Below, in pieces: positions 8,917 to 38,680 of a stretch of 64,000 nt of DNA. The notes under the pieces were generated by a model. That model worked only from the letters and a program-made list of their open reading frames with translations. It ran no database searches and had not been told where the DNA came from. A program made the translations under genes and the position numbers. Source of the DNA: Candidatus Schekmanbacteria bacterium RIFCSPLOWO2_02_FULL_38_14 (lineage in GTDB: Bacteria; Schekmanbacteria; GWA2-38-11); NCBI GenBank assembly GCA_001790855.1, contig MGDH01000018.1:1-64000 (forward strand), read 5' to 3'. Every line of letters begins with the position of its first letter. The first letter of the stretch is position 1.

Positions 8917-10041
8917 TCACAGAAACCCTGAACTCTCCATTTTCTTCCTGAGCCATTTTTCTGAACCCCTGCCAAGTGTATCTCTGAGCCAGAGCCCCCT
9001 GCAGTCGCTGCATACCTGGACAGAGTTGAATTTTCCCTCAAGATGGGCAACTCTGATTTCCTGAAGCTTTTCCCCTTTCCATATTTTATTAATGCTGCTT
9101 TTCCTGAGATTTCCGAGTATGCCGCGATGATAGAAATCAATACAGCATACTGAAACAGTTCCATCCCAGTTTATTGCAAGAGCAAGCCATAAAGAAATAC
9201 AAGGGTACCTTTTATCGCTTGTGTATCCGGGCTTATTATTCTCTTTTCGTATAAAACCTGGCCAGGAAAATTCCCTGCTAATCACCACTTCATCAGCAAG
9301 TCTGTTCCATCTCTTCTTAAAAGCCTCGACCTCGCCAAGGTTTTCCTCTAAAGGAATAAGTTTTACTCTTATAAGAGGCTTAGCCAGATTAAGTTTTTTT
9401 TTAGTTTCTATAAAATTTTTAATATTCTCCTCAACCTTATCAAACCCCGGGACTCTTTTGATTTTCCTGTAAGTCTCCTCAGTTGCAGCATCTACGTTTA
9501 TTATTATACTGTCAATTCCTGATTTCAAAATATCCTCCATCATTTTTCCTTCTAAAAGTATTGCATTTGTGCTGAGGTGAGTCTGATAAGCTGCCTTTTT
9601 GTTAACAGCATACTCAATCATCTCTGGCAATCTTGGATGCAGAAGCGGCTCTCCGTCTTTATGGAAAAAAATTGTTGTCCTCTTACCAAATTTCAGGCTT
9701 TCATCAATTATATTTTTATACAGCTCAAAATCCATGTATCCTTTTTCAACTGCAGGAGTTAAACCTATATCAGACTCATCAGGATGGGCGCGCACGGTGG
9801 CGGCCCCTACAGAATTAGAATTTTGTAGGGGCTGGCTCAGTCCATGCCCTCTTTCAAAACCTACTGATGACTGCGGACACATACTGCATTTAAGGTTACA
9901 GAGATTTGTTGGCTCGATAAAAAGTGAAGCAGGAAACTCCATTGAAATCTGGCGTTTCTCAATCACGTTCCTGATAAACTTGCTTTTGGTAGCAATGAGA
10001 GCAATTTTTTTTGCAGAATTTTCAAAAATATTATTGAGCAT
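8917..10041 (-). CDS. Radical SAM/SPASM-domain protein with an in-frame palindromic insertion
   Basis: 374 residues. The radical SAM cluster motif CNLKCSMC (CxxxCxxC) is at about 48-55, after SLFIEPTN. HKDGEPLLHP and LSTNAILL are conserved barrel segments. The C-terminal SPASM-like cysteines occur in VSVCCIDFYHRGILGN and VCSDCRGL. Such proteins use S-adenosylmethionine and iron-sulfur clusters to modify peptides, cofactors or cell-surface precursors; the substrate is not evident. Between CPQSSVGFERG and YMDFELY sits an extra stretch of about 35 residues encoded by a palindrome (9792-9850). Homologues would be expected to run directly from one part to the other. No partner peptide gene is visible nearby. 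Confidence 0.87.
   Translation of the reverse strand: MLNNIFENSAKKIALIATKSKFIRNVIEKRQISMEFPASLFIEPTNLCNLKCSMCPQSSVGFERGHGLSQPLQNSNSVGAATVRAHPDESDIGLTPAVEKGYMDFELYKNIIDESLKFGKRTTIFFHKDGEPLLHPRLPEMIEYAVNKKAAYQTHLSTNAILLEGKMMEDILKSGIDSIIINVDAATEETYRKIKRVPGFDKVEENIKNFIETKKKLNLAKPLIRVKLIPLEENLGEVEAFKKRWNRLADEVVISREFSWPGFIRKENNKPGYTSDKRYPCISLWLALAINWDGTVSVCCIDFYHRGILGNLRKSSINKIWKGEKLQEIRVAHLEGKFNSVQVCSDCRGLWLRDTLGRGSEKWLRKKMESSGFL
9792..9850. repeat. GCCCCTAC...GTAGGGGC palindrome inside the radical SAM gene
   Basis: Arms GGCCCCTACA and TGTAGGGGC flank a short centre (GAATTAGAATTT). The element continues into GCGCGCACGGTGGCG on one side and GGCTCAGTCCATGCCC on the other. The gene's frame stays open through it, giving residues such as GLSQPLQN and VGAATVRAHP. 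The extra segment directly follows the radical SAM cysteine motif. Confidence 0.75.
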
Positions 10042-10100
10042 ACTTTTAAAGGGCTATGCAGGTTAAAAACATCTGGTCTGGAGTTTTGACTTTTGCATCT

Positions 10101-11006
10101 TTACTTATTATTGAATCCTTCCATCATAGAACGATTGAGAAGTCTTTCCCATTCATAATCCACTCTTTTCTGAATATCCTTTATCTCTTCCTCTTTAAGG
10201 TGCCTGAATCTCATCTGGTGTTTGAAGTATTCTGAAACAGGTATCTTTTTTGGTTGTACATTTATTATATATTCTTCACCATTTATCACTTCATATAGCG
10301 GAAATACCTTTGTAAGGGTTGCAAGCCTCGCAATTTTTATGGTCTTCTCTGTAGATGACCTCCATCCCGGAGGACATGGGGCAAGTATATGAAGAAATCT
10401 TGTTCCTTTCATGTCCCTTGCTTTTTCAGCCTTTCTGGCCAAATCCTCAGGGTATGCGACTGATGCTGTTGCTGCATAGGGAATCTTGTGCCCTGCCAGT
10501 ATTTCAATAATGTTCTTTTTTGGACTGTCCTTGAACTGTCTCTCAGGAGTCGTTGTTGTCCACGCACCGTAGGGAGTTGCAGAACTGCGCTGTATTCCAG
10601 TATTCATATAAGCCTCATTATCGTAGCAGCCATATATAATATTCTCATTCCTTTCAGCAGCTCCTGAAAGCGCCTGAAGCCCGATATCAAAAGTTGCTCC
10701 ATCTCCTGCCCACGCAAGGACATGAACGTCCCCGTTTCCATTCATATCAAGCGCTGCCCTTATTCCTGAAGCTGTTGAAGCCGCAGTTTCAAATGCGCAG
10801 TGCACAACCGGAACCTTCATTGTTGAATACGGGAATGGAGACTGGATTACTGAAAAGCATCCGGCAGGAATTACAACTACTGTCCTTTTTCCAAGAGCCC
10901 TGATTACATACCTCATTGCAAGAGGTGCACCACATCCCTGGCATGCAAAATGCCCCGGATGCATATGTTCGATTTCTGTTTTTTTCAGATCTTTAATCCC
11001 GCCCAA
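10101..11006 (-). CDS. porB: 2-oxoacid (pyruvate):ferredoxin oxidoreductase, beta subunit
   Basis: 301 residues. PorB binds thiamine diphosphate and a [4Fe-4S] cluster. CQGCGAPLAMRY (about 22-33) gives the first cluster cysteines. The TPP-Mg motif is GDGATFDIGLQALSG followed by CYDNEAYMNTG. The TTG at 11006 is supported by an AGGAGG site eight bases upstream inside the porA end, so porA and porB overlap by 22 bases. It is the last gene of the porG-flavoprotein-porA-porB operon. The enzyme oxidises pyruvate or a related 2-oxoacid to acyl-CoA and CO2, or works in reverse. The exact substrate cannot be told from sequence alone. Confidence 0.93.
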   Translation of the reverse strand: MGGIKDLKKTEIEHMHPGHFACQGCGAPLAMRYVIRALGKRTVVVIPAGCFSVIQSPFPYSTMKVPVVHCAFETAASTASGIRAALDMNGNGDVHVLAWAGDGATFDIGLQALSGAAERNENIIYGCYDNEAYMNTGIQRSSATPYGAWTTTTPERQFKDSPKKNIIEILAGHKIPYAATASVAYPEDLARKAEKARDMKGTRFLHILAPCPPGWRSSTEKTIKIARLATLTKVFPLYEVINGEEYIINVQPKKIPVSEYFKHQMRFRHLKEEEIKDIQKRVDYEWERLLNRSMMEGFNNK

Positions 11007-12139
11007 ATTCCACCCTCCTCTCCGCGCTCATGGTTCAGAGTATACTTTGTAATCTCCTCTATTGTATTGGGAGTTATGTCTCTTCCGCCAAGTCCTGCAA
11101 TGAATTCAAAAACCACAGGCATATTGCTGTAGCCAGAAAGGGCTGCCCTTATCTCCTGGGCAAAAATGCCACCTACTCCAAACGACATGTTGCGGTCTAT
11201 AACTGCTATCTTGTCATATCCTCTCACGGCGTCTCTGATTTCCTGGCTTGGAAACGGCCTGAACATTTTTATTCTAATCATTCCTATCTTGTTACCCCTT
11301 TTTCTTAAATTATCTATCACAATCCTCGTTGTGCTTGCTGCAGTTCCTGTAGTTATTAATAAAACCCTTGCATCCTCTGTTTTGTATTTTTCAATAATAC
11401 CATACCCTCTTTTAAAAATATCCCTGAACTCATCATTAACTTTAACAGCTACATCCCTTACCCCATCCATTGCTTTTTTTATCAGATATCTCATCTCCAT
11501 ATAATGCTCAGGATATGCAATGCTTCCAAAGGCATTTGGATTATCAACATCAACTTTTATTTGCGGCTCATAACCGGGAAGAAAAGAATCTACCGTTTTC
11601 TGGTCCGGAATATCCACAGGCTCTAAAGTATGGGAAAGGTAAAATCCGTCATAAGCAAGCATCAACGGAAGCAAAGTCTTCTCAGCTATCTTGTAAGCCT
11701 GAAAAACAGTATCAAGGATTTCCTGATTGCTCTCACAATACATCTGTATCCATCCTGTATCCCTTTGTGCGAGAGAGTCAGTTTCCTCAGTCCAGATATT
11801 CCATGCAGGGCCAAGCGCCCTGTTGACATTTGCCATTACAATAGGAAGCCTTGCCCCTGCTGCCCAGTGCAAGAGCTCATGCATTAATAGCAGTCCCTGA
11901 GATGATGTTGCAGTAAAAGTCCTTGCACCTGCTGTTGATGCACCTATGCAGGAAGCCATTGCAGAGTGCTCTGATTCAACCTTTAAAAACCGTGTATTAA
12001 TTTTCTTGTCAGCACACATCTCAGAAAGAAGCTCAACCACCTGAGTCTGCGGAGTTATTGGATATGCCGCAATAACATCAACCCTTGAAAGCATTACTCC
12101 AAAGGACACTGCATGGTTTCCCATAATCAGTTTTTTCAC
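10985..12139 (-). CDS. porA: 2-oxoacid (pyruvate):ferredoxin oxidoreductase, alpha subunit
   Basis: 384 residues from a GTG at 12137-12139. The frame is open to 12181, but the GAGGAGG site lies just ahead of the GTG, and the GTG shares its first base with the TAG stop of the upstream gene. Conserved PorA features are AAYPITPQTQVVELLSEM, KVESEHSAMASCIGAS and FTATSSQGLLLMHE in the pyrimidine-binding domain. A C-terminal transketolase-like domain begins near RVLLITTGT. With PorB it forms the TPP site. The operon order gamma, delta-type flavoprotein, alpha, beta is unusual in having a large flavoprotein in place of a small ferredoxin subunit. Confidence 0.93.
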   Translation of the reverse strand: MKKLIMGNHAVSFGVMLSRVDVIAAYPITPQTQVVELLSEMCADKKINTRFLKVESEHSAMASCIGASTAGARTFTATSSQGLLLMHELLHWAAGARLPIVMANVNRALGPAWNIWTEETDSLAQRDTGWIQMYCESNQEILDTVFQAYKIAEKTLLPLMLAYDGFYLSHTLEPVDIPDQKTVDSFLPGYEPQIKVDVDNPNAFGSIAYPEHYMEMRYLIKKAMDGVRDVAVKVNDEFRDIFKRGYGIIEKYKTEDARVLLITTGTAASTTRIVIDNLRKRGNKIGMIRIKMFRPFPSQEIRDAVRGYDKIAVIDRNMSFGVGGIFAQEIRAALSGYSNMPVVFEFIAGLGGRDITPNTIEEITKYTLNHERGEEGGIWAGLKI

Positions 12140-13923
12140 TATCTTTCCTCCTCTTCCATTGATATGACATATCTCGGGCATTCTTCAGCACATATTCCGC
12201 ACCCCTTGCAGTGGTCATAATCGAAAATATATCCCTCTTCCCCTTCTTTTCTCAGAACTGAAATATCAGGGCAGAATATATAGCAATTATCACAGCAAGT
12301 ACATGAACCGCAGCTAAAGCATCTCTCTGCATCCCGCAAGGCAATCTCCCGGGACAAACCGAGCTTTACTTCTTTGAATCCCTTCAGTCTGTTCTTGACA
12401 GAAACATATGGCATCCTGCCACGTTCAGATACTTCAAAATAATCAAGGTTTATGTTTTCAAAACCTACAATTGTCCTGTTCTTCTCATTGTCCCCGGCTC
12501 CGTCAGTATAACATCTCATTGAAACGCTTCCTTTGGAACCGAGCTCAATATCTTCCATAAAGGCAAGAGGGTTTTTCCCTTTTATAAAACAGTCAATTGC
12601 TATTGCCCCTCTCTTGCCAGAGCCTATGGCATGGACAACAGTGCGGGGCTGGTCTATAATATCACCGCCGGCAAAGACTCCGTTAATTGATGTAGCTCCG
12701 ACCATATCAATCTCAACAGCCCCTTCATTTATCCTGATATCTTCCGGAAGGTATGAAAAATCGGTTTCCTCGCCTGTTGCTGTTATTATGTTATCAGCCT
12801 CGATGATGAAATTTGACTCCTTTACAGGCACAGGAGTTCTTCTTCCGCCTGAATCAACATTTCCAAGACGCATCCTCACACATTCCATTCCGATTATTCT
12901 TCCGTTCTCTTCAATTACCCTCACAGGAGCTGCCAGAAATTCAAGTATAGCGCCTTCCCTCTCTGCTTCTGATATCTCTTCCTCATTAGCAGGCATCTCA
13001 TTCTTTGTTCTGCGGTAAAGAATCTTAACTTTCTTTTTTAAACGCAGAGCGCTTCTTGCCACATCAATTGCCGTGTTTCCACCGCCAATCACGGCAACAA
13101 ACTCTCCAAGTTCAACTCTCTGTCCTGTGTTTACTCTTCTGAGAAAATCAAGCCCTGAGTAAACTCCCGGCAAATCATCTCCCGGAATTCCAAGTTTCCT
13201 GTTCTTATGAGCCCCTGTAGCAAGAAACACGCAATCATGTCCCCGCCTGATTTTTTCAAACTCAATATCTTTTCCGATTTTTAAATTGGTTTTGACTTCA
13301 ACTCCAAGAGAAAGAATCTGGTTGATTTCCCATTTCAGGATATCCTTTGGAAGCCTGTAGTCTGGTATTCCAACAGCAAGAATCCCGCCTATTTCCGACA
13401 AAGCCTCATAAACAGTAACATTGTATCCAATTCTTGCAAGATGAAAGGCACAGGTAAGTCCTGCAGGACCTGAACCGACAATTGCAACCTTCCTTTTCAT
13501 TTTATTCCTGACATTTGCCTGTCTTTCTTTTGCTAAAAAAGCCTCTCCCTTTTTAGTTGTTCTTGCAAAATCAGCTACAAGCCTTTCAAGGGAATTAATA
13601 GATACTTCCCTGTCAAAATTCCTCCTGTTGCAATTATCCTCACACGGATGGTAGCATACCCTTCCGCACACTGAAGGAAACGGATTCTCTTCCATTATCA
13701 GCATATATGCTTCAACATATCTTTCCTCTTTTATCAGCTCTATGTACTTCTCTATGTCTTCCCCTGCAGGACATCCCTCCCGGCAGGGTGCAAGCTTGTC
13801 CTGGTATCTGGGCTTGATATATCTCCATGTGCCGGTTTTGTTCCACGAAATAGAATTAAACGCTGCTGGCATCTCAGGCATATCAGAAACTTTTTTGTAG
13901 CTTACGGGTCTTGAATCAATCAT
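12139..13923 (-). CDS. GltD-like FAD/NAD(P) oxidoreductase fused to a 2x[4Fe-4S] PorD-type ferredoxin
   Basis: 594 residues in four parts. Residues 45-115 carry the GltD-type N-terminal cluster cysteines (CREGCPAG, then CGRVCYHPCEDNC). VAIVGSGPAGLTCAFHLARI (about 144) is the FAD site. VIGGGNTAIDVARSALR (about 274) is the NAD(P) site. The C-terminus has CFSCGSCTCCDNCYIFCP and CKGCGICAEECP, a two-cluster ferredoxin like PorD. Placed between porG and porA, it probably replaces the delta subunit and couples the oxidoreductase to NAD(P)H. That would allow NAD(P)-linked electron exchange with ferredoxin; this role is inference. Its stop shares one base with the porA GTG. A related protein occurs at 58505-60409. 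Confidence 0.9.
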   Translation of the reverse strand: MIDSRPVSYKKVSDMPEMPAAFNSISWNKTGTWRYIKPRYQDKLAPCREGCPAGEDIEKYIELIKEERYVEAYMLIMEENPFPSVCGRVCYHPCEDNCNRRNFDREVSINSLERLVADFARTTKKGEAFLAKERQANVRNKMKRKVAIVGSGPAGLTCAFHLARIGYNVTVYEALSEIGGILAVGIPDYRLPKDILKWEINQILSLGVEVKTNLKIGKDIEFEKIRRGHDCVFLATGAHKNRKLGIPGDDLPGVYSGLDFLRRVNTGQRVELGEFVAVIGGGNTAIDVARSALRLKKKVKILYRRTKNEMPANEEEISEAEREGAILEFLAAPVRVIEENGRIIGMECVRMRLGNVDSGGRRTPVPVKESNFIIEADNIITATGEETDFSYLPEDIRINEGAVEIDMVGATSINGVFAGGDIIDQPRTVVHAIGSGKRGAIAIDCFIKGKNPLAFMEDIELGSKGSVSMRCYTDGAGDNEKNRTIVGFENINLDYFEVSERGRMPYVSVKNRLKGFKEVKLGLSREIALRDAERCFSCGSCTCCDNCYIFCPDISVLRKEGEEGYIFDYDHCKGCGICAEECPRYVISMEEEER

Positions 13924-13953
13924 ATGAACCTTTCAAAATACCATTGTTCTTAA

Positions 13954-14003
13954 TAGGCGGGACATTCCTGTCCCGCAAAGACGGGGTTAGAAAACCCCGT
14001 CTA
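13954..14003. repeat. Two adjacent hairpins between porG and the flavoprotein gene
   Basis: GCGGGAC-ATTCCT-GTCCCGC is followed directly by GACGGGGTT-AGA-AAACCCCGTC. This is a dispersed-palindrome type also common elsewhere. Lying inside the por operon, it could attenuate or stabilise the transcript. Confidence 0.75.
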
Positions 14004-14024
14004 TCGAAACGAAACATAGAAGTT

Positions 14025-14618
14025 TTATTTTATTAAAACGGCTTTTTCTCTCTTCAAATTCTCTTTGAGCTCAAACCTGCACATCTTATATGCATCCCTT
14101 GCAGCCAGTATGTTTTTTTCAGTATTAACAAGAATCTCCTCTGCTATTGCTTTTTCCAGTGACTTAAAAGGAACAATCTCTGTAATCTTCAAAAAAGCCC
14201 CAAGTATTGCTGTGTTTACAATAGGGGATGAAGGATTCCCGAGGCCATGGGAATAGGCAATTGAAGAAGCATCAACTGTGGCAACACTAAAAGAGGAAAG
14301 CTGAGGATAATCATCAGGTTTTTTATGGGTATTAATAAGTATCATGCCGCCTTTTTCCAGTCCCTCTGTTACATCAACGCTTTCAATCAGAGTAGAATGA
14401 AGGACTACTACATAGTCCGGCTCATACACACATGTGCGCAGTCTGATTGGTTCATCATCAATTCTGATAAAGGCTGCGACAGGCGCGCCTCTTCGCTCTA
14501 TCCCAAAAATGGGGAAGGACTGGACATGTCTTCCCTCATTGAACAAAGCCAATGAGAGGATTTTTGAAGCAACTACTGCTCCCTGTCCTCCCCTGCCATG
14601 AAATCTGATTTCAATCAT
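14025..14618 (-). CDS. porG: 2-oxoacid (pyruvate):ferredoxin oxidoreductase, gamma subunit
   Basis: 197 residues when started at the ATG 14616-14618 ([13 protein letters not shown]). The longer frame to 14669 adds AT-rich repeat-derived sequence. The gamma-subunit signature is [18 protein letters not shown], followed by [19 protein letters not shown] and the central [14 protein letters not shown]. PorG completes the CoA-handling part of the complex. It is the first gene of the operon. The next gene starts about 100 bases downstream, separated by two palindromes. Upstream lies the XRE-cupin regulator on the same strand, a plausible controller. Confidence 0.92.
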
Positions 14619-14639
14619 CTTTTGTATCCAAATTTTGTT

Positions 14640-14775
14640 TTCAAAAATAATTATAAGTTCAAATGTCAAAATCCAAATTTCAAATGAAGTTCAAATTATT
14701 AAATGCCAAAATATTCAATTTAGGCTTTAAACTTCCCCATTCATTTGAGCTTTGAGCTTTGGCATTTGACATTAG
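14640..14775. repeat. AT-rich TTTGAACTTTGAGCTTTGACATTTGA-type repeat
   Basis: The stretch holds alternating words such as CAAATGTCAAAATCCAAATTTCAAA and, inverted, TTTGAGCTTTGGCATTTGACATT. Related copies are at 16135-16260, 29740-29875 and 60412-60550. It is non-coding, with an imperfect long hairpin. It separates porG from the regulator. Confidence 0.75.
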
Positions 14776-14790
14776 CTCCTCTACTGACCG

Positions 14791-15402
14791 TTACTCCTTC
14801 GGTGTATACAGCACCACCACTGCCTTGGGCTTAATATTTCCAATGCCGTTGAAAGCGTGAGGAATCTTGGAATCGAAACAAAGGCTGTCTCCTTTTTTCA
14901 AAGTAATTATTTCATTTTCCAGTTTATATTCAAGCTCGCCTTCAAGAAGAAAAAGGAACTCCTCTCCTTCGTGGCTTACAGGAGCAACCTCCTCTTCTAT
15001 ATTAATATCAAATTCAACCAGAAAAGGCTGCATATGATTTTCTTTCCTGTGAGATGAAAGCATTTCATAGGAATAACTCAAAGGCATTGCCTTTCTCTGA
15101 GGCAGTTTCCGTTCAACCTTTTTTCTCTCATTAACCCTGACTATATCAAATTTCCTGTCAGACCTCTCTTCACTGAAAAAATATACTATTTCAACACCCA
15201 AAGCCCTGGAAATCTTTAAAAGAGCCGGAATCGGAGGAGCAACCGTATCATCTTCTATCTGCGACAGCACAGTCTCTGAAAAACCTGTTTTCTCAGACAG
15301 TCCCTTTAAAGAAACTTCCCTGCTTTTTCTTAGCCCTTTTATTTTTTCTCCAATCTTTAAACCCCTTACCTCCTCTTTAGTATTCTTATTATCTAAAGCC
15401 AT
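14791..15402 (-). CDS. XRE-family regulator with C-terminal cupin
   Basis: 203 residues. The N-terminal helix-turn-helix covers about 16-72 (KIKGLRKSREVSLKGLSEKTGF and VLSQIEDDTVAPPIP). A linker leads to a cupin barrel (about 135-200), with SHEGEEFLFLLEGELEY and KKGDSLCFDSKIPHAF as its two motifs. Such regulators typically sense a small molecule through the cupin and control nearby metabolic genes. It lies just upstream of the por operon on the same strand and may control it; this is inference from position. No operator is evident beyond the dispersed repeat in between. Confidence 0.88.
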   Translation of the reverse strand: MALDNKNTKEEVRGLKIGEKIKGLRKSREVSLKGLSEKTGFSETVLSQIEDDTVAPPIPALLKISRALGVEIVYFFSEERSDRKFDIVRVNERKKVERKLPQRKAMPLSYSYEMLSSHRKENHMQPFLVEFDINIEEEVAPVSHEGEEFLFLLEGELEYKLENEIITLKKGDSLCFDSKIPHAFNGIGNIKPKAVVVLYTPKE

Positions 15403-15565
15403 TTAATGACTCCTTTAAGCTATAAGTTGGAGTGCAAAACAGAAAGTTAAAATTATTAGTTTTTTTAAAAAGCTTACAGCTAACAGAATTATTTTGATTT
15501 TGTCATTTGCCACTTTATTAAGATTACCTTAGTTTTTTTGTCTGTTCAAGGAGTTTTCTTCACTG

Positions 15566-15847
15566 TCAAAATTTAATATCAAAGCCTTTGTACTCCCCTC
15601 TGTAATCCTCCCATACAACTTCTACATCTGTTACTTTTGACAGCGAAGGGCCCTTTTTTAATCTAAGGATAAACTTTTCAATTTCTTTTTTCTCTCCCTC
15701 TGCAACAGTTTCCACATTGCCATCGTAAAGGTTTTTTACATGTCCGTTTAATCCAAGGTTTGCTGCCTCTCTTACAGTAAAATAGCGGTAACCTACGCCT
15801 TGAACAAACCCCTTTACTACTGCCTTTATCCTGACCTTATCATTCAT
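15566..15847 (-). CDS. acyP: Acylphosphatase
   Basis: 93 residues, the standard acylphosphatase length. The enzyme hydrolyses acyl phosphates such as acetyl phosphate or carbamoyl phosphate in the cytosol. The active-site loop is KGFVQGVGYRYFTVREA, holding the catalytic arginine. GLNGHVKNLYDGNVETVAEG supplies the catalytic asparagine. It ends with the family-typical YKGFDIKF. It stands apart, upstream of the regulator gene, divergent from the sugar-nucleotide genes beginning at 15953. Confidence 0.93.
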   Translation of the reverse strand: MNDKVRIKAVVKGFVQGVGYRYFTVREAANLGLNGHVKNLYDGNVETVAEGEKKEIEKFILRLKKGPSLSKVTDVEVVWEDYRGEYKGFDIKF

Positions 15848-15952
15848 AACCCAGAAAACCTTTTGACAAACCTATTGTGTTTAAGATAAAAAACAAAAAC
15901 TTGATTAGATAAGAACTTTTTTGCTCTCTAAATTATCATATTTCGCTGTTAT

Positions 15953-16159: not shown

Positions 16160-16260
16160 ATTTCAAATGATTAAATGCTAAAATGAATTAAAAATTAAAT
16201 TTTGGATTTTAGATTTCATTTGAACTTTGAGCTTTGACATTTGAATTTTTAATTATTTTT
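16135..16260. repeat. AT-rich repeat at the breakpoint of the truncated dehydrogenase
   Basis: It starts GATGCCAAAGTTCAAAGTCC and ends, inverted, with TTTGAACTTTGAGCTTTGAC. It is the same family as 14640-14775 and 29740-29875. The dehydrogenase homology stops exactly where it begins. Confidence 0.75.
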
Positions 16261-16276
16261 CTTTAGAAGGAACATC

Positions 16277-17227: not shown

Positions 17228-17238
17228 AATTCTGGCAG

Positions 17239-17306: not shown

Positions 17307-17333
17307 ACTAATTTTCAGAAAAAAGGCAAAAGA

Positions 17334-18692: not shown

Positions 18693-18720
18693 ATCTGATT
18701 TCTCTTATAATTTTTTTCAA

Positions 18721-18788
18721 ATTCCCCCCTTACCCCCCTTTTCCCTGCCTGCCGGTAGGCAAGTAAAAAAAAGGGGGATGGGGGGATT
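18721..18788. repeat. CCCCCC/GGGGGG palindrome carrying a nested CCTGCCTGCCGGTAGGCA core
   Basis: Outer arms AATTCCCCCCTTACCCCCC and GGGGGATGGGGGGATTAATT enclose CCTGCCTGCCGGTAGGCAAG. One repeat family is nested inside another, as again at 62777-62840. It lies between convergent genes and could act as a terminator. Confidence 0.8.
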
Positions 18789-18875
18789 AATTCCAATATT
18801 CCTTTGTATGGCCCTAAAACTTATGAAACTTACAATAATCCTAATCTCTGTAATCATATTAAACATACACAACAA

Positions 18876-21685: not shown

Positions 21686-21780
21686 GGTCATTGCGAGAAG
21701 CGTTAACGACGTGGCAATCTCAAAAATGTCATTGTTATTAAAGAAATTGCCACCTGCCTGCGGTAGGCAGGCAATGACAA
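21686..21780. repeat. TCATTGCGAG repeat with a nested CCTGCCTGCGGTAGGCAGG core
   Basis: GTCATTGCGAGAAGCG and GTGGCAATCTC open the element; GAAATTGCC...GGCAATGAC closes it, with the core at 21750-21771. It is non-coding, between the flavoprotein and the MFS gene. Confidence 0.8.
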
Positions 21781-28302: not shown

Positions 28303-28678
28303 TAAAAACTTACTCCAATAATTAGTCTATAGACCCACGCAACACAATATTATAAAGTAAAAATCAAATCCCCCCTCGCCCCCCTTTAGCAAAGGGGGGT
28401 TGGGGGGATTTGAACATTCAATTTATTTAACCTTTGACTTCTTTAAATTCATAAAAAATTGTTTTTGTCAAGGGCTTTTAACTCAATAAAAAAATAGGTC
28501 AAGCAAAGAAATTGAAAATGTATAGTAAGTGCAATTCCCACAGGTTGCTGCAGGGTTGGCAGGGTTGGCAAACGAATCTATAAAAACTGTTACTTGCATT
28601 TTGAGATTTTCTGCAGTTTATTGGAGGAGCTTCAATTTATTTGACAATTGGATATTTTTCTGATAGCAAAATCTGAAT
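28303..28678. other. Divergent intergenic region with one large palindrome
   Basis: The 376 bases between moeB and argC hold the 48-bp palindrome at 28365-28412 (CAAATCCCCCCTCGCC... and its inverse) and a GGTTGGCAGGGTTGGCA direct repeat near 28553-28569. A TTGACA at 28641-28646 lies upstream of argC, but the matching -10 is poor. I see no gene. Confidence 0.6.
28365..28412. repeat. CAAATCCCCCC...GGGGGGATTTG palindrome, intergenic copy
   Basis: Near-perfect arms surround CTTTAGCAAAG. It is almost the same element, inverted, as the one inside ppx at 30193-30242. Other family members are at 18721, 37719, 41126 and 62777. Confidence 0.88.
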
Positions 28679-29734: not shown

Positions 29735-29739
29735 ATAAT

Positions 29740-29875
29740 AAGTTCAAATTTCAAAATCCAAAATTCAAAATCAAATAAGAGCTTCAAGTGATTATTTTTT
29801 CACTTAAACCTTTGAATCCCTGACACTCTGAACCCTTTTTTATTTGAACTTTGAGCTTTGGCATTTGACATTTTA
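29740..29875. repeat. AT-rich TTTGAACTTTGAGCTTTGGCATTTGACATTT repeat
   Basis: AAGTTCAAATTTCAAAATCC at one end pairs loosely with TTTGAACTTTGAGCTTTGGC at the other. CCTTTGAATCCCTGACACTCTGAACCC lies in the middle. It belongs to the family at 14640, 16135 and 60412. It fills the gap between convergent argC and ppx. Confidence 0.75.
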
Positions 29876-30817
29876 TATCATCTCCATCATTACACCATAG
29901 CGCAGCCCTCTTGTGCTCACATGTAGCTCATAGAATTTCAGATAGTTTATTATCTCTTCAAGAATAATAGCTCCAGCAATAATAACATCTGCTCTATCAG
30001 GTTCAAGACCTATTATCTTTTTCCTCTCATCCATGTCCTTTTTCTTCAAAACAGAAATAATTCTTTTTAAATTTTCACTTTTCAATTTCCAATTTTCAAT
30101 TTTCAACCTGTCATATCCTGGGATTTTCAGGTCTATCTGCGCAAGGGTGGTGACTGTTCCTGCAACTCCGATTAGAAGATTATCCTTGTTAGGCAAATCC
30201 CCCCAACCCCCCTTTGCTAAAGGGGGGCGAGGGGGGATTTGCTTGAGATTATTTTTTATTGCTTCCCTTATATTTCTAACCTCATTTTCTTCTACAGGGT
30301 CTGATTTCAAGAACTTTTCTGTCAGTCTCACTGAGCCGATTTCAAGGCTTTTAGAATATTGAATTTTATCATCTGCTCCAAAAATTATTTCAGTGCTTCC
30401 TCCTCCAATATCTATGATTGTTGTATTAATACCTTTATCTTCTATTCCTGAAACTGCTCCAAGAAAAGAAAGCTCAGCTTCTTTTTTCCCTGATATTACT
30501 TCAACTATTATATCTGTTTCATTTTTTACAAGATTTAAGAAGGCTGATGAGTTTTCTGCCATTCTTAAAGCGCTTGTTCCCACTACCTTGATATTTTCTG
30601 CTCCTGATTTTTTGCACTTATCAATATAGTCCTTCAGAACGCTGAGGGTTTTTGTCATCGCTTCGTTTTTTATCAGTTTTGTATCATAAACCCCTTTGCC
30701 GATTCTTGTAACTTTTAAATCTTCGTGGATGGGTTCAATGTGTTTATTTTTATCAATTCTTCCTATTAATAATAAAACTGAGTTTGTTCCTATATCTATT
30801 GCACCATAAGTTTTCAT
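29873..30817 (-). CDS. ppx: Ppx/GppA-family exopolyphosphatase with an in-frame palindromic insertion
   Basis: 314 residues. Ppx/GppA enzymes remove phosphate from polyphosphate or pppGpp. The actin-like nucleotide fold shows AIDIGTNSVLLLIG at the N-terminus, VVGTSALRMAENS (about 83), TTIIDIGGGSTEIIFG (about 134) and IGVAGTVTTLAQI (about 217). Near residue 196 the sequence NNLKQ is followed by IPPRPPLAKGGWGDLP, encoded by a G/C-run palindrome, then NKDNLLIGVAGTV. This segment would be absent from homologues. The frame is open, so the protein is probably still made. Members of this short type (about 300 residues) lack the C-terminal HD domain of E. coli Ppx. Confidence 0.88.
   Translation of the reverse strand: MKTYGAIDIGTNSVLLLIGRIDKNKHIEPIHEDLKVTRIGKGVYDTKLIKNEAMTKTLSVLKDYIDKCKKSGAENIKVVGTSALRMAENSSAFLNLVKNETDIIVEVISGKKEAELSFLGAVSGIEDKGINTTIIDIGGGSTEIIFGADDKIQYSKSLEIGSVRLTEKFLKSDPVEENEVRNIREAIKNNLKQIPPRPPLAKGGWGDLPNKDNLLIGVAGTVTTLAQIDLKIPGYDRLKIENWKLKSENLKRIISVLKKKDMDERKKIIGLEPDRADVIIAGAIILEEIINYLKFYELHVSTRGLRYGVMMEMI
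30193..30242. repeat. GCAAATCCCCCC...GGGGGGATTTGC palindrome inside ppx
   Basis: A 50-bp near-perfect palindrome centred on TTTGCTAAA. It adds 16 to 17 codons in frame to the ppx-like gene. Its intergenic counterpart is 28365-28412. Confidence 0.88.
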
Positions 30818-30924
30818 AAGGTTACTTCAAAAATTAGTTTAATTATTTTTATTCTTGACTCTTGACTATCTTTTAGCTTGCATATATCAAATATGTTTTA
30901 AAAGATTAAAGCAAAAAAGGATTT

Positions 30925-30976
30925 GTAGAAACAGACCTTAAGGTCTGTTGTCAACAGGTCTAAAGACCTGTTTCTA
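30925..30976. repeat. GTAGAAACAGACC... palindromic repeat, copy 2
   Basis: Outer ends GTAGAAACAG and CTGTTTCTAC enclose two smaller hairpins (AGACCTTAAGGTCT and AGGTCTAAAGACCT). It is the same family as 8804-8856. It lies between ppx and the PGI/PMI gene. Confidence 0.85.
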
Positions 30977-31054
30977 CATTTTAAAAAACTTACTACTTAC
31001 AGCTCAATGCTTATAGCTTACAGCCATTAAAAGTCTTAAATCAAGGAGAAGTTT

Positions 31055-32110: not shown

Positions 32111-32129
32111 TTGGAAATTGAAAATTTAT

Positions 32130-32570
32130 TTACTTCTTTAATCTTTTGTACTTAATAACATCTCCAGATGGTGTACCGCCGATTGCATCTAAATACTGCA
32201 TTTTAATTCTGTTTTTCCCATTGCTTATAAGTGTTATTCTTACAAAATCACTTGGCGAACCAATTTGAGTGGCTCCTAAAATGGTAATATCAGCAGTTTT
32301 TTTGTTTTCGTTAACAGTTCCTGATGCATTTATTGTGGGAAGATCTACGCCATTATAATTTGTGTCTACTGTTCCTGAAATGTTATTTCCTTCCATTTTC
32401 AGAATGTAAACTATAATAATAGGCACTTGTTGATACTCAATGCTTGCTTCAAATTTTCCTGCAAAAGGTTTTTTTGGTTTGAATTTAAAATTTCCTCCTG
32501 CAAAGGCACTGCTGCAAACCAGAAACATTGGGATAAGAAAGATTAAGATTAGTAAACGCGACTTTTTCAT
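32130..32570 (-). CDS. Small secreted protein of unknown function
   Basis: 146 residues with a clear signal peptide (LLILIFLIPMFLVCSSAFA, cut before GGNFKFK). The mature 122 residues are predicted to be mostly beta-strand, with alternating hydrophobic residues (FEASIEYQQVPIIIVYILKM, ISGTVDTNYNG). It resembles small lipocalin-like periplasmic proteins in pattern only. No family is recognised. It is followed on the same strand, upstream, by the FadL-like porin gene with 190 bases between, so a link to lipid handling is possible but unproved. Confidence 0.7.
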   Translation of the reverse strand: MKKSRLLILIFLIPMFLVCSSAFAGGNFKFKPKKPFAGKFEASIEYQQVPIIIVYILKMEGNNISGTVDTNYNGVDLPTINASGTVNENKKTADITILGATQIGSPSDFVRITLISNGKNRIKMQYLDAIGGTPSGDVIKYKRLKK

Positions 32571-32758
32571 TTTGAAAAACCTCCTTCTAAAAAGATTGTT
32601 GTAGAATATTATGCAAAAATTATGCCAGAGTAATCTTGGAAATATTTAAGTTGCTAACTTCTTGAAAAAATAGAGTATGATCTCTTAAAACATTTCAATT
32701 GAGAAAATAACTGAGATTGTAATGGTACAAAAATGAACATATCCGTTATATAACTAAC

Positions 32759-34063
32759 TTAAAATTTGTAACCAACACTCATTGAAACTATATTTGCATA
32801 GCTGTTGTATTTTGCATTGAACCTGAACATGTTATTGAATCCGACCCTTGCAGTCCGGGTTGAGGCTTCTTCAAAGAAGATAGCCATATTGGAAATATCA
32901 AACTTCCATTTTCCAAGCTTGTAGCCGAGTCCAAGGGTTACAGCGTGTTTGTCAGCATCAGGTACCATCGGGTCAAGACGGTTGTTAGGAACAGTGCTTG
33001 GGTCATAAGCGTAACCTCCCCTTAGTGCCAGATTATTGTTTAACCTGTATTCAAGTCCTGCCCTGTAGGTTACTGTATCCTTCCACTGCTGGGAAATCTT
33101 TACGTTTTTCATCCTTTTATTCCTGAACTGAATTCTAAGTGTATCACTCCGCGACCAGCCTCTCCAGTCAATGTCAAACTCAGCAGTAAGATTTTTAGAG
33201 ATATTGTAGGATACGCCTGCTAAAAGCTGCGGAGGCATTGTTATCTTTGTTCTTGCCCTGCTGTTAAATAATGTTGCATTTATAAGAGCTACTGTTGGAC
33301 TGTTTGCACTGTTAGCTTTATTGAACTCTGTCCTTCCTGAATATCTTATTCTTATTGGAGACCTGTAGGACAGACCGATTTTTAGATTATCAGTAACGCT
33401 GTATAACCCTCCGGCATTTATTCCTGCGCCACCCCCATCCCCTTTAAGTTTTGAATGTCCTTCTATTCCGGTCAAAGTTCCTGGAGTAAAGCCGGGTATG
33501 CTGGCTGCGGCAAGATTTTCATAAACAAGCCTGCTGTTCAATACTACGTCTGAGTATACTCCAATACCTCCAACTCCAATTGATAGATTTTTTGTTGGTT
33601 GCCATGCGATGACAGGATTAAAGAAAAAGGTTTTGAGCATCGCGTAAGTAACAATGTGTCTTCCGGGCCAGCCACTCTGCCAGTCTGATGCAAGGCCAAA
33701 TGGCTGGTAAAAACCAAAACCTGTTGCAAACTTGTCATTTATTTTTCCTGTTACATAGAAATAACTTGGAGTGTCTAACCTGTCTTTTGTTGAGCTTTTA
33801 TCACCGCCTCCGGATTTATTGTATGTAGTTTTTACAGTTACCAGATTAGTTCCCAAAGTCATATTGATTCCATCAAGCTGTGTGATTCCTGCCGGATTGT
33901 AGAATATTGCAGATGGGTTGCTTGCCCTTGCAGCAAAGGCGCTTGCCCCACCCATTGCCTCTGCATCCTGCTCGCCAATAATAAAGCCATTGCCAAAGGA
34001 GGCAGAAGGGTGCAGAAATATAATGATTGCTAAAACAAAGAAACTTATCAGATATTTTTTCAT
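32759..34063 (-). CDS. fadL: FadL/TodX-type outer membrane transporter
   Basis: 434 residues. The signal peptide is KKYLISFFVLAIIIFLHPSASFG. The mature start GFIIGEQDAEAMGGASAFAA and SNPSAIFYNPAGITQL are the FadL/TodX (OMPP1) signature: the N-terminal plug and the NPA loop. Amphipathic strands run through to the end SMSVGYKF, with the terminal phenylalanine expected for outer-membrane assembly. This family imports long-chain fatty acids or hydrophobic compounds. It confirms a Gram-negative envelope. Solo gene with about 190-200 non-coding bases on each side. Confidence 0.9.
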   Translation of the reverse strand: MKKYLISFFVLAIIIFLHPSASFGNGFIIGEQDAEAMGGASAFAARASNPSAIFYNPAGITQLDGINMTLGTNLVTVKTTYNKSGGGDKSSTKDRLDTPSYFYVTGKINDKFATGFGFYQPFGLASDWQSGWPGRHIVTYAMLKTFFFNPVIAWQPTKNLSIGVGGIGVYSDVVLNSRLVYENLAAASIPGFTPGTLTGIEGHSKLKGDGGGAGINAGGLYSVTDNLKIGLSYRSPIRIRYSGRTEFNKANSANSPTVALINATLFNSRARTKITMPPQLLAGVSYNISKNLTAEFDIDWRGWSRSDTLRIQFRNKRMKNVKISQQWKDTVTYRAGLEYRLNNNLALRGGYAYDPSTVPNNRLDPMVPDADKHAVTLGLGYKLGKWKFDISNMAIFFEEASTRTARVGFNNMFRFNAKYNSYANIVSMSVGYKF

Positions 34064-34263
34064 GCTATTCCTTTCTTTTAGAATTCAAGTAAAGCAAACT
34101 TAATTCTTTATCTATGCAATTATTATGCCAACTCTTCCAATCCATTAAACTCTTGAAACCACAATAATAATACACTGTAAATTCTCATAGAGAAAGAAAT
34201 ATGTTAATTTTATGTCGCTTTAATGTTCTTAGTGTACAGAAATGTAATGTTACTAATGATAGC

Positions 34264-37200
34264 TTAAAATGGCTGGATGATTTCCTTTTTCTTTTCCGCA
34301 AACCATTTATATATGGTTGGCAGAACAAGCAATGTTAAAAGTGTTGATGATACCAGTCCGCCTACCACCACCGTTGCCAAAGGTCTCTGAATTTCAGAGC
34401 CTGGACCTTGAGCAAAGAGCATGGGAATAAGTCCCATAATGGCTACAAAAGCTGTCATAAGCACAGGCCTTAAGCGTTTCTCACACCCTAAAGTTATAGC
34501 CTCTTCAATATTCAAACCTTCTTCCCTCAGCTTATTGATGTAAGAAACAAGGACTACGCCATTTAGAACTGCCACACCAAAAAGGGCAATGAAGCCAACT
34601 GATGCGGGGACACTTAAGTATTGTCCAGAAATAAAAAGACTTAGAATACCGCCTATCAGAGCAAGTGGGAGGTTTAAGATTATCAAAAGAGCGTATCTCA
34701 TGGAGTTAAAAGTCGAGAATAGCAGAAAGAAGATAAGACCAATTGTCAGGGGAACAATAATCAAAAGCCTCTTCATAGCCCTCTGCTGATTTTCAAAAGT
34801 ACCTCCCCATGTAATGTAATATTCAGGTGGAAGTTTTACCTGTTCTCTTATTTTCTCCTTTCCCTCCTGCACAAAACTCCCTATGTCTCTTCCTTCAACA
34901 TTGCATTCAATCACAACTCTCCTTTTGCTGTTTTCCCTACTTATTTGGACAGGACCTTCAGTAATTGAGATTTTGGCAAGCTGGGCAAGAGGAATATTAG
35001 CTCCATTAGAAGCCTTCACCCCGTTAGAACGCCCCATCACTTGGGATGGGGATGAATCTAAAGCCCCGTCCTTTCTAACGGGGTTCACAAAAATATTACC
35101 AATCGCTTTAATGCTATTTCTTTTCTCTTCAGGAAACCTTAACACCACTGAAAACCTTTTATCTCCTTCAAAGACTTCTGTGGCAGCTTTTCCACCAATA
35201 GCAGTCTCAATTATTTCTTGAATATTTGCTACATTGATTCCATATCTTGCAATTTTCCTCCTATCTATATCTATTGTCAGGTAAGGCTGGCCAGCCACCT
35301 GTTCAACTCTCAAGTCCCTAACTCCATCAACTTTAGCCATCACTCTTGCTATCTCCTCAGCTTTTTCTTTTAAAACTTCCATATCATCTCCAAAGAGTTT
35401 TATGGCAATCTGGGACTTTACTCCGGATATAAGCTCATCAACTCTCATTGCTATGGGCTGAGTGATATTAAGACCTATACCCGGAATCTTCTCAAGTTCT
35501 TCTCTAATCTTTTCTATGAGTTCATTCTTAGTCCTTGCTGTTTTCCACTTCTCCCTTGGTTTAAGCCTTACAAAGGGGTCGCTCAAATTCGGCCCCATGG
35601 GGTCTGTGGCAATCTCAGGCGTTCCTATCCTTGATACAACTCCTTCAACTTCGGGAATATTGAGAAGCGCTTTCTGCACCTTTTTTTCTATCTCCACAGA
35701 TTCTGTAAGAGAAATACTTGGAAGCCTTATAATCTGTGGCATGATAGTTCCTTCATCAAGGCTTGGTATGAATTCAGTGCCAAGAAAAGGGAATAGAGCA
35801 ATGCTTCCTATCAGAAGAATCAAAGCAGCGGTTATAACCACCTTGGGATGTTTCATAACCCAACGGAGGAGAATAGTATAAGGTTTCTTTACCCAATGGA
35901 TAATAAAACTTTCCTTCTCCTTCCCCGGTTTTAAGAATAAAAAACAGAGAACCGGTATTACAAAGATAGAAAGGATGAGGGATGAGAGAATAGCTATGAC
36001 TACTGTAAAGGCTAAGGGTGAAAATATCTTTCCCTCCATTCCCTGAAGTGTCATGATGGGGATAAAGGTTAAGGCTATTATAAGTTCCCCAAAAAAACTG
36101 GGTTTCCTCACTTCAATCACAGCATTTAAAACTGTATGCAACTTATGTTTTGATGCCCCGGTTTCTGACAAATGCCTGTGGACATTTTCCACCTGGATGA
36201 TGGCTGCATCCGCAATCATGCCTAAGGATATGGCAAGGCCTCCTAAAGACATAAGGTTTGCAGAAAGACCGAGCCTCTCCATTACGATAAAGGTTGCAAG
36301 AGTTGCAAGGGGCAAACTTAAGGCCACAACAAAGGCACCTCTTATGTCTCTCAAGAAGAGATATAGAACTATGATAATGAGAATACCACCCTCCTCAATG
36401 GCCCTTGTTACGGTTCCAATACATTTTTCAACAAGCTCAGTCCTGTCATAATAAGGCTTAATCTTTATCCCTCTCGGAAGAATACTGCTCTCATTTATTT
36501 CCTTTACCTTTTCCTTAACCTTCGCTACTACATCCCTGCCGCTTCCTCCCTTTATCATCATGACAATCCCAGCAACAACCTCTCCCTTACCATCCTTCAC
36601 AGTAGCACCCTGCCTCGTCTCTGGACCAATCTTTACTTCAGCTACATCCTTAACAAAAATAGGTGTTCCTGCTTCTTCCCTGACAATGATATTTTCAATA
36701 TCCTGAATAGATTTGATAAGGCCAAAACCTTGAACTATATATCGCTCTGATGAGTGCTCGAGAATATTGCCTGCTGCATTTGTATTATTTTGAAGGACGG
36801 ACTCAAAAATTTCCCTCAAGCTCAAGTCATATTTTCTCAGTTTGTCTGGATGGACAAGCACCTGATACTGCTTAACAAATCCTCCAAAAGCATTGACCTC
36901 TACAACTTCTGGGATGGTTTTTAAGATGGGTCTTATAACCCAATCTTGAAGAGTTCTTAATCCCATAAGATCTTTTTCTGTGAAGTTGGGATTGCCTTCC
37001 TTTTCAAAGGTATACTGATAAATTTCTCCAAGAGCTGTCGATATTGGACCTAAGCTTGCCTCTATACCTTCAGGTAACTTCTCCTTAGCTTCAATTAATC
37101 TCTCAAGAACCAACTGCCTTGCAAAATAAATATCTACATCATCTTCAAAAACAATTGTTACGAGAGAGAGCCCGAATTTTGATAGGGAGCGAAGTTCGAC

Positions 37201-37437
37201 AAGTCTTGGAAGTCCGCTCATTTGAACTTCTATAGGGAATGTTACAAATTTTTCAACTTCAATGGGAGAACGACCAGGAGATTCTGCTATGACCACAACC
37301 TGGATATTTGTCACATCTGGGAAGGCATCAATGGGAAGCCTTTGGAAAGAATATATTCCAAAAACGGCTAACAAGATGACTCCGATTATTATAAGAAGCC
37401 TTTGCTCAAGGGCAAAAATGATTAACTTTTCAATCAT
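34264..37437 (-). CDS. Heavy-metal RND efflux pump (CzcA/CusA family) with an in-frame palindromic insertion
   Basis: 1057 residues, two sets of six membrane helices and two large periplasmic loops. LPIDAFPDVTNIQVVV and SPIEVEKFVTFPIE are HME-RND hallmarks. The proton-relay region reads AISLGMIADAAIIQVEN: the central aspartate and glutamate are kept, but the first aspartate of the CzcA-type DFGxxxD pattern is serine, closer to CusA-type. PFLGTEFIPSLDEG is conserved. Near residue 785, IGNIFV is followed by about 24 residues (NPVRKDGALDSSPSQVMG and so on) encoded by a palindrome at 35018-35084, before SNGANIPLAQLAKI. The pump exports metal ions with its adaptor and outer membrane partner. Metal identity is uncertain. 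Confidence 0.92.
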   Translation of the reverse strand: MIEKLIIFALEQRLLIIIGVILLAVFGIYSFQRLPIDAFPDVTNIQVVVIAESPGRSPIEVEKFVTFPIEVQMSGLPRLVELRSLSKFGLSLVTIVFEDDVDIYFARQLVLERLIEAKEKLPEGIEASLGPISTALGEIYQYTFEKEGNPNFTEKDLMGLRTLQDWVIRPILKTIPEVVEVNAFGGFVKQYQVLVHPDKLRKYDLSLREIFESVLQNNTNAAGNILEHSSERYIVQGFGLIKSIQDIENIIVREEAGTPIFVKDVAEVKIGPETRQGATVKDGKGEVVAGIVMMIKGGSGRDVVAKVKEKVKEINESSILPRGIKIKPYYDRTELVEKCIGTVTRAIEEGGILIIIVLYLFLRDIRGAFVVALSLPLATLATFIVMERLGLSANLMSLGGLAISLGMIADAAIIQVENVHRHLSETGASKHKLHTVLNAVIEVRKPSFFGELIIALTFIPIMTLQGMEGKIFSPLAFTVVIAILSSLILSIFVIPVLCFLFLKPGKEKESFIIHWVKKPYTILLRWVMKHPKVVITAALILLIGSIALFPFLGTEFIPSLDEGTIMPQIIRLPSISLTESVEIEKKVQKALLNIPEVEGVVSRIGTPEIATDPMGPNLSDPFVRLKPREKWKTARTKNELIEKIREELEKIPGIGLNITQPIAMRVDELISGVKSQIAIKLFGDDMEVLKEKAEEIARVMAKVDGVRDLRVEQVAGQPYLTIDIDRRKIARYGINVANIQEIIETAIGGKAATEVFEGDKRFSVVLRFPEEKRNSIKAIGNIFVNPVRKDGALDSSPSQVMGRSNGVKASNGANIPLAQLAKISITEGPVQISRENSKRRVVIECNVEGRDIGSFVQEGKEKIREQVKLPPEYYITWGGTFENQQRAMKRLLIIVPLTIGLIFFLLFSTFNSMRYALLIILNLPLALIGGILSLFISGQYLSVPASVGFIALFGVAVLNGVVLVSYINKLREEGLNIEEAITLGCEKRLRPVLMTAFVAIMGLIPMLFAQGPGSEIQRPLATVVVGGLVSSTLLTLLVLPTIYKWFAEKKKEIIQPF
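35018..35084. repeat. ACCCCGTTAGAA...TTCTAACGGGGT palindrome inside the RND pump gene
   Basis: Twelve-base arms at 35018-35029 and 35073-35084 enclose a second hairpin, CCCCATC/GATGGGG. The element adds 22 to 24 codons in frame. Its family differs from the G/C-run palindromes in ppx and in the adaptor gene. Confidence 0.85.
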
Positions 37438-37438
37438 C

Positions 37439-38680
37439 TTATTCTTCCTCCAATTCCGCTTTGAGAAGTTCTGATTTTAGATAAAAAGCTCCATCAGTGA
37501 CCACACTATCTCCGGCTTTAAGCCCTTTTAGAACTTGATAAAAACCATTTATTTCTTCTCCTACTTCTATTTCTCTTTTTTCAAAGGTATTGTTGCTCTT
37601 TGCAATAAAGATAATTTTCTTTCCATCCTCCATCTGAATTGCTTTTTCAGACACAACCAACAACTCTGGGGACGATTTAGTTATAATCTGTACATCAGCA
37701 AACATTTCGGGTTTCAGAATCCCCCCATTCCCCCCTTTAAAATCCCCCTCAGCCCCCCTTTTCCAAAGGGGGGTGTGGGGGGATTCAGGGGGATTATCAA
37801 TCTCAATCCTTACTTTTGCCATACGGGTTGAAGCATCTACAATATCACTAATATAAGTGACTTTTCCTTTAAACTCTTCTTTAGGATAAGTTGAGACTTT
37901 AATATTTGCTTCCAACCCCTTTTCAACTGATGATATATCCTTCTCAGGAACATCAGCTATAACCCATAATCTTGATAAATCTATAATAGTAAAAAGCTGA
38001 CTTGAAGACTCAATTACTTCTCCTAAAGTCAAGTTCCTTTCAACCACTGTTCCAGAAAACGGAGATCTTATTGACATTTGAGGATTGATTATGTGGGTTG
38101 AGGTCAATCTTTCTATATCTTTATCACTTATTCCAAAAAGGTATAATTTCTCTTTAGAGGCTTGAAACTCTGCTTTGACATTTAAATACTCTGCCTCTCT
38201 CCGTTGAAACTCACCAAGTCCGATTGCTTTACCGTCAAAAAGCCTTTTTGCACGCTCATACCCCTTTTCAGCTACCCTCAAATTCGCTTCAAGTTTTAGA
38301 AAATTTGACTCTGCTTCTCCAAGTTCAGGACTGTCTATTGTGGCAAGGGCTTCACCTTTTTTAACCTCGTCACCAAGATTTACTTTTATCTCAATAACCC
38401 TTCCAGGTATTCTGCTTCCTATACGGGCAACTCTGTTTTCATCAGGCATTATTTTGCCAGGAAAATTATGAGAAAGGCTTAGTTTTTTTAATGTTACCTC
38501 TTCAACTTTTATCCCTGCTATTTTTATAGAGGAAGGATCAAAATGAACTATATTTAGATTGGTATCTTGCTTGGTTACATTTTCTTTGTTCTCTTTTTTT
38601 GGAGAACATGCGTTGAAAGTAAAAACACCAATTTGTAAAATTAAAATCATTAAAAGTAAATTAATCAGATTTTTTTTCAT
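37439..38680 (-). CDS. RND efflux periplasmic adaptor (CzcB/CusB-like) with an in-frame palindromic insertion
   Basis: 413 residues with a lipoprotein-type signal (IGVFTFNACSPKK). The membrane-fusion fold appears in order: KIMPDENRVARIGSRIPGRV (beta-barrel/lipoyl), GDEVKKGEALATIDSPEL, a coiled-coil hairpin (about 115-185), MSIRSPFSGTVVERN and a C-terminal domain ending ELLKAELEEE. Between RIEIDNP and LKPEMFADVQI lies about 22 extra residues (PESPHTPLWKRG, EGDFKGGNGG) from a palindrome at 37719-37795. Homologues normally read IDNPDGxLKPGMFA. It bridges the inner-membrane pump and the TolC-like channel. The ATG overlaps the czcC-like gene by four bases; the pump start follows its stop by one base. 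Confidence 0.9.
   Translation of the reverse strand: MKKNLINLLLMILILQIGVFTFNACSPKKENKENVTKQDTNLNIVHFDPSSIKIAGIKVEEVTLKKLSLSHNFPGKIMPDENRVARIGSRIPGRVIEIKVNLGDEVKKGEALATIDSPELGEAESNFLKLEANLRVAEKGYERAKRLFDGKAIGLGEFQRREAEYLNVKAEFQASKEKLYLFGISDKDIERLTSTHIINPQMSIRSPFSGTVVERNLTLGEVIESSSQLFTIIDLSRLWVIADVPEKDISSVEKGLEANIKVSTYPKEEFKGKVTYISDIVDASTRMAKVRIEIDNPPESPHTPLWKRGAEGDFKGGNGGILKPEMFADVQIITKSSPELLVVSEKAIQMEDGKKIIFIAKSNNTFEKREIEVGEEINGFYQVLKGLKAGDSVVTDGAFYLKSELLKAELEEE
37719..37795. repeat. CCCCCC/GGGGGG palindrome inside the RND adaptor gene
   Basis: Arms such as AATCCCCCTCAGCCCCCC and GGGGGGTGTGGGGGGATT form the main hairpin, with further C-rich and G-rich runs outside. The reading frame stays open through all 77 bases. 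Same family as 30193 and 28365. Confidence 0.85.

Follow-up and report, generated by a model that had tools for sequence, protein, structure and literature searches.

Protein-coding palindromes, first described in Rickettsia, reportedly once appeared in a title as unique to, but recurrent in, this genus. R. conorii carries 44 insertions of Rickettsia palindromic elements (RPEs), nearly half of them genic (PMC10969869). In-frame palindromes are also known from Wolbachia, in the form of the related Wolbachia palindromic elements (PMC4224334), and coding palindromes of Methanocaldococcus jannaschii were reported in 2005, as cited in a later article (PMC2229807). The GTAG/CGTC repetitive extragenic palindromes (REPs), which include RPE-4 and RPE-6, are short hairpins, mostly intergenic with a genic minority; their dimers encode 20-30 amino acids, they lie within genes of Opitutus terrae, Thauera, R. 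conorii and others, and REP-associated tyrosine transposases (RAYTs) are present in the same genomes (PMC3733652). Here, we analysed the opening 64 kb of contig 18 (the window, meaning this whole stretch) of Candidatus Schekmanbacteria bacterium RIFCSPLOWO2_02_FULL_38_14, a metagenome-assembled genome of 2.68 Mb in 43 contigs and 99% complete, and followed its short palindromes, assigned to families A to F, through the genome. Family B, with its lineages B1 and B2, and family C have copies that lie in frame within conserved genes.

Family B (CCCCCCTTTnnnAAAGGGGGG) has a core of 44-46 bp and a 5' tag AAATCCCCC. Like RPE-1 to RPE-3 and the Wolbachia elements, it combines intergenic copies with in-frame copies in unrelated conserved genes (PMC10969869, PMC2229807, PMC4224334). 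The likeness to RPEs drawn in the preliminary description holds for the way of working (18 genes, in frame, absent from orthologs) and not for the family: B measures 45-60 bp as opposed to 100-150 bp, has a probably different consensus and occurs in an unrelated lineage according to the kinship table, so that it is set apart from the RPEs by length and host. In addition, lineage B2 is exclusively genic here, and palindromes nest within one another. The GTAG/CGTC REPs (PMC3733652) are matched by the GTAG tag of family C, by short hairpins, by a genic minority and by RAYT-like genes; B departs from them in its tag and in the coding-only B2. By direct reading, a GTAG/CGTC tag stands at one hairpin end of families C (GTAGGGGC...) and E (GTAGAAAC...), whereas B carries neither GTAG nor CGTC. 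Methanocaldococcus, as cited, likewise offers coding palindromes outside the Rickettsiales, though in an archaeal host. In-frame palindromes are therefore already known from Rickettsia, Wolbachia, Methanocaldococcus and the GTAG/CGTC REPs, and the earlier statement that no equivalent had been described was too strong because of the reports beyond Rickettsia (PMC3733652, PMC2229807, PMC4224334). New here are a different element, an unrelated host, the coding-only B2, the nesting of palindromes, in some cases with the frame kept, and a spread of B across phyla. No relevant literature match to the element sequence was found, and Rfam gave no match within the window. We consider it likely, with a probability of roughly 0.75, that several short, non-autonomous, REP/REPIN-like palindrome families have spread by transposition and been filtered by reading-frame selection.

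Genic palindromes in the window and the genome

Three genes of the window, all on the minus strand, carry palindromes in frame. The gene of a radical SAM/SPASM protein (8917..10041; Pfam PF04055 and PF13186) contains a GTAG-tagged C palindrome, GCCCCTACA...TGTAGGGGC (9786..9849, minus strand; RNA fold z = -4.0), read in frame as ...SVGAATVRAHPDE... within an insert at amino acids ~60-97. Its ortholog in genome G003 is 35 amino acids shorter at this place, where it reads CPQNDEDFMERGFMDF, and the one in G002 is likewise without the insert. In the Ppx/GppA phosphatase gene (29873..30817; PF02541, E 1e-63), a B palindrome (30193..30242, minus strand) encodes QIPPRPPLAKGGWGDLP, with an RNA fold of -43 kcal/mol (z = -6.8); the G001 ortholog is 12 amino acids shorter and lacks it. 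A second apparent repeat in Ppx, LKIENWKLKSEN, was rejected as an insert and is native, since G001 has LQIENYKMQISN. The third gene, for a HlyD/CusB-type membrane-fusion protein (37439..38680; PF16576), includes a double B palindrome (37717..37795, minus strand) encoding ESPHTPLWKRGAEGDFKGGNGGILK, absent from the homologs in G002 and G003, which are ~21 amino acids shorter. The preliminary description had counted four such genes and at least three families within them. The three genes named here, with orthologs lacking the inserts, stood; a fourth was found neither by the hairpin scan nor by the repeat map nor by the peptide-motif scan of all open reading frames (ORFs) of the window, and only two families are involved, B (Ppx, HlyD) and C (radical SAM). 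In these same scans, an A copy turned up at 5361-5395, where a 186-aa ORF has its doubtful N-terminus. The many intergenic copies noted in the preliminary description were borne out, with B, B/D, A/B/D, A, E and F copies in the window. Hairpins of such strength number 24 in the window as opposed to 0-1 per 64 kb in block-shuffled windows; chance hairpins were ruled out by these shuffled windows and by reversed-pattern controls.

A strict B core, CCCCTTTN(1-8)AAAGGGG, was searched through the genome with the reversed pattern as control, and the stretches around matching sites were then read. It yielded 46 copies, the reversed pattern none. Genes, called as ORFs, hold 16 B-type copies, namely 12 of the 46 strict ones and four diverged ones from a peptide-profile search, and most host ORFs are of known families: RimO, PIG-L deacetylase, an 837-aa membrane protein, NuoM (C-terminal), HemW, GT4, GT2, YfiH, a LolC/FtsX-type permease, a 263-aa membrane protein, HisF, a C25 peptidase, an LpxL-like acyltransferase, Ppx and HlyD, the last host being a 91-aa ORF (L056) of doubtful status. 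Adding the two hosts of C, a transposase gene and the radical SAM gene, brings the genes with in-frame palindromes to at least 18, and the palindromes add roughly 12-40 amino acids to each host protein; the inserts are thus not confined to the window genes on which the preliminary description had drawn. Its expectation that genic copies keep the frame was also confirmed, all those found in the host genome being in frame and none out of frame. By sequence alignment, the inserts are placed between aligned blocks of homologs in the Protein Data Bank (PDB). HisF matches solved HisF proteins end to end except at amino acids 137-176, where the palindrome sits, and a comparable gap or loop at the insert was seen against PDB homologs for RimO and YfiH of the host genome and for TsaC of the remote genome G088.

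Per kb, B copies are ~16-fold rarer within genes than between them, an estimate that assumes 85% coding. None of 15 same-strand gene pairs tested around intergenic B copies represents a split gene, since the flanking proteins are each complete or of different families. The reading phases of the 16 genic copies are distributed 13:3:0, those of the last four being taken from their peptides. Stop codons alone do not explain this bias because the phase that no genic copy uses is still open in 36 of 66 intergenic copy-strands, compared with 43 of 66 for the favoured phase.

Lineages B1 and B2, and nesting

The majority of B copies belong to B1 (AAATCCCCCCnnnCCCCCCTTT...), of which 34 of 40 strict copies are intergenic. 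B2 (AATCCCCCTTAGTCCCCCTTTnnnAAAGGGGGATTnAGGGGGATT) has a 45-bp core in a unit of ~60 nt and 20 codons reading KGIIPLSPPLLKGDLGGFSE, and encodes the peptide IIPLSPPLxKGDxGGF in one orientation and one frame throughout. Allowing up to three mismatches, exactly seven B2 copies were found in the host genome, all seven in ORFs, and both copies of G001 are genic as well, one in the gene of a CO-dehydrogenase-type flavoprotein and one in a GT4 gene, in the same frame as B2 of the host genome; B2 is therefore genic in nine of nine cases across two genera. The genic bias among strict copies (Fisher p = 1e-4) is indicative only and partly post hoc, since B2 was recognised after the genic copies had been seen. 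By direct reading, the right arm of genic B2 copies is GATTTAG or GATTCAG, while perfect symmetry would give GACTAAG and with it an in-frame TAA (GAC TAA G). In most of the other genomes tested, the frames with the B2 peptide reading are short and often contain stops, and B is chiefly intergenic there; no exact match to B2 was found in viral contigs. The two lineages coexist in one genome and differ by few bases, B1 being mostly intergenic and B2 confined to coding sequence, so that this unrelated repeat in an unrelated lineage makes it possible to test directly how selfish hairpins turn into protein segments.

The GT4 genes of the host genome and of G001 are 69% identical over the aligned part and carry B between identical conserved blocks. 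In G001, a second B lies in another loop, with a D palindrome nested inside and in frame. At the shared site, the inserts have 12 residues in common, 9 of them with an identical codon, compared with 54% in the flanks, a figure that does not decide between an ancestral insertion and a hot spot; the site is one or the other.

Nesting is a recurrent property of these palindromes. B occupies the middle of A in several contexts that look independent as well as in an amplified A-B composite, and D is found at the tip of B. At least seven of the 46 B copies lie within A elements, far above random placement (p ~2e-9). Since one A-B composite was amplified as a unit, independent events are fewer than copies, perhaps three or more. 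Some nested palindromes remain in frame, as in the second G001 GT4 insert with D inside B. Families besides B were assessed on ~784 kb, or ~30% of the genome, in stretches picked mainly around B copies, and 35 arm pairs of family A were counted there. We also observed that family A (GTCATTGCGAG...) has the form of a REPIN-like arm pair, with B, AGCTGATAGCTG-type repeats or other sequence lying between the arms.

Probable mobilisation and persistence of the palindromes

Seven loci of the genome match Y1_Tnp (PF01797), all of them outside the window. The lack of a transposase gene in the window, pointed out in the preliminary description, fails as an argument about the genome, and the mobilising enzyme that it envisaged has its counterpart in these Y1/HUH (RAYT-like) transposases. 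Their link to C is direct: one Y1_Tnp gene holds a C palindrome in frame (VGATLAVAQKKRAGARPAPTIG), and C copies in the radical SAM gene and the LpxL-like gene share its VGA frame; another C copy ends the PIG-L gene. Two other Y1_Tnp genes have flanking hairpins (GGCAGGTCTCCTGACCTGCC at one, GCGGGACATTCTTGTCCCGC with GCGGGGTTAGAAAACCCCGC at the other), an arrangement that is matched at two G001 loci and is the REP/RAYT pattern (PMC3733652, PMC2817692). As a side observation, the ORF at L260:9710-11167 (plus strand) joins a lipid A acyltransferase to a glutaredoxin-like domain; because the linker contains half of a C palindrome (VGADLASAH), a palindrome insertion may have joined the two genes.

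The link between B and Y1_Tnp is circumstantial, and its enzyme is putative. None of the seven host-genome loci is flanked by B; elsewhere, B sits within a Y1_Tnp paralog in G227 and lies downstream of a Y1_Tnp gene in G001. The G227 paralog is broken out of frame by a B unit of ~107 nt, with the exact empty site preserved in two sister copies, and B was inserted there without target duplication, a single case that fits the HUH mechanism. The paralog belongs to a Y1_Tnp cluster within ~8 kb of G227 contig 13 (L307, L313, L319). The system resembles REPIN/RAYT systems (PMC2817692, PMC3116915) in having hairpins paired in inverted orientation (family A, as well as B in G312 and G227), in hairpin-flanked Y1_Tnp genes and perhaps, going by the one exact case, in the missing target duplication; it differs from them in that the host genome has no B-flanked Y1_Tnp.

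The B half-element, allowing up to one mismatch, was detected in 24 of 386 genomes across the bacterial domain, and the reversed control in none. This collection includes one genome of the same family and two of the same order, the remaining ones sharing only the domain according to the kinship table. In G088, the TsaC/Sua5 and GT2 genes carry B in the same frame as B of the host genome. With the same hairpin core so widely distributed, the process may be common and may account for odd Pro/Gly-rich inserts such as PPLxKGG in predicted proteins. Two further arrangements were noted. In G227 (L230, L232, L234, L237), a B hairpin sits inside a miniature inverted-repeat transposable element of ~160 bp whose inverted ends are GTAACCATTCAG and which apparently has target duplications of 8 bp, such as CCCGTGTT and CGTTCTTT; since B lies within this larger element, it may travel as a passenger. 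In G377 (L191:2441-2900), five B palindromes form a tandem array with a 111-bp period within one open frame.

Transposition and reading-frame selection would together account for these patterns as follows. Non-autonomous REP/REPIN-like palindromes of several families would have spread through the genome by transposition, and coding insertions would persist only with whole codons, an open frame and a tolerated place, purifying selection acting as the filter, and what survives within genes would thus be in-frame peptide inserts. This logic would be that of the RPEs, arrived at independently. C, and the hairpins at the two other transposase genes, were most likely moved by Y1/HUH (RAYT-like) enzymes encoded elsewhere, and B probably likewise by a putative enzyme. 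B2 may represent a B lineage adapted to coding sequence, its right arm being altered where symmetry would give an in-frame TAA. Several points weigh against this explanation. The phase bias could stem from target preference instead of peptide tolerance, and the same-site GT4 copies in both genera could be ancestral and not recent. The host genome itself yielded no nucleotide-level empty site, because its nearest relative has only ~64-69% protein identity. In the host genome, B has no enzyme tied to it. In addition, no Y1_Tnp match at all was obtained in G250 and G377, both of which carry B, and this argues against a general need for a Y1 enzyme. Furthermore, the B2 p-value is partly post hoc, the assembly consists of 43 contigs, and the gene calls are ORF-based.

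A stronger version, in which B2 is specialised for protein genes and moves from gene to gene in a fixed frame, with a stop-avoiding arm and insertion directed to tolerated points, is tentative and, on balance, unlikely. It also seems rather doubtful to us that B2 mechanistically targets coding DNA, for instance through copying into transcribed or single-stranded DNA at a codon-biased target, so that insertion preference and not selection made the pattern. The nine of nine genic B2 copies in a single orientation and frame would agree with such targeting, the GT4 insertion point common to two genera and the second B/D insert suggest hot spots, and the entry of palindromes into the centres of others hints at a structural target; its sister lineage B1 is nevertheless mostly intergenic, and the 16-fold depletion of genic copies is what selection predicts. 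Positive or stabilising selection could instead have kept the inserts as useful Pro/Gly-rich peptides or mRNA hairpins, for example in translation pausing or mRNA processing, which we regard as improbable. The RNA folds are strong (z of -4 to -7 in four of five tested; ~-34 kcal/mol for the B2 hairpin) and the codon identity of the GT4 inserts is weak evidence in the same direction, but the host genes are unrelated, orthologs manage without inserts, and recent amplification accounts equally well for the codon identity, a small difference over 12 residues. Very improbable, finally, is annotation noise, that is, low-complexity or misassembled segments chancing to keep a frame open. The metagenomic assembly leaves room for this, and the 91-aa ORF (L056) and the A copy at 5361 may be spurious, yet the inserts stand between two homologous halves in HisF, YfiH, RimO, radical SAM, HlyD and Ppx, the pattern recurs in the independent genomes G001 and G088, and the reversed-pattern controls are zero.

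Further palindromes and open reading frames

Outside genes, the window scan placed intergenic B palindromes at 28364..28413 and 41126..41171. Two intergenic nests were found: a D palindrome (CTGCCTGCCGGTAGGCA) at the tip of a B palindrome (18720..18790), and a triple nest of A containing B containing D (62715..62865). Family A is further represented by GTCATTGCGAG...CTCGCAATGAC at 5361..5447, by a copy at 21687..21780, one arm of which holds a D palindrome, and by an intergenic copy at 43982..44097. Two family E palindromes, TGTAGAAAC...GTTTCTACA at 8803..8857 and another at 30924..30978, and one of family F, AAAGGGGACGGTTCTC at 2081..2129, are intergenic as well.

Some ORFs of the host genome attracted attention for other reasons. 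In the minus-strand ORF at L025:10205-12442 (745 aa), LpxC is joined to a response regulator receiver and a sigma-54 activation AAA domain; it is unusual for a regulator to be fused with an enzyme of lipid A. Long threonine runs occur in ORFs of 648 aa (L025:5557-5674) and 1316 aa (L052:16051-20000). In the window, at 53708-56553, two neighbouring ORFs of 409 and 408 aa with several CxxCH repeats share 60-76% DNA identity and apparently encode multi-domain cytochromes c.

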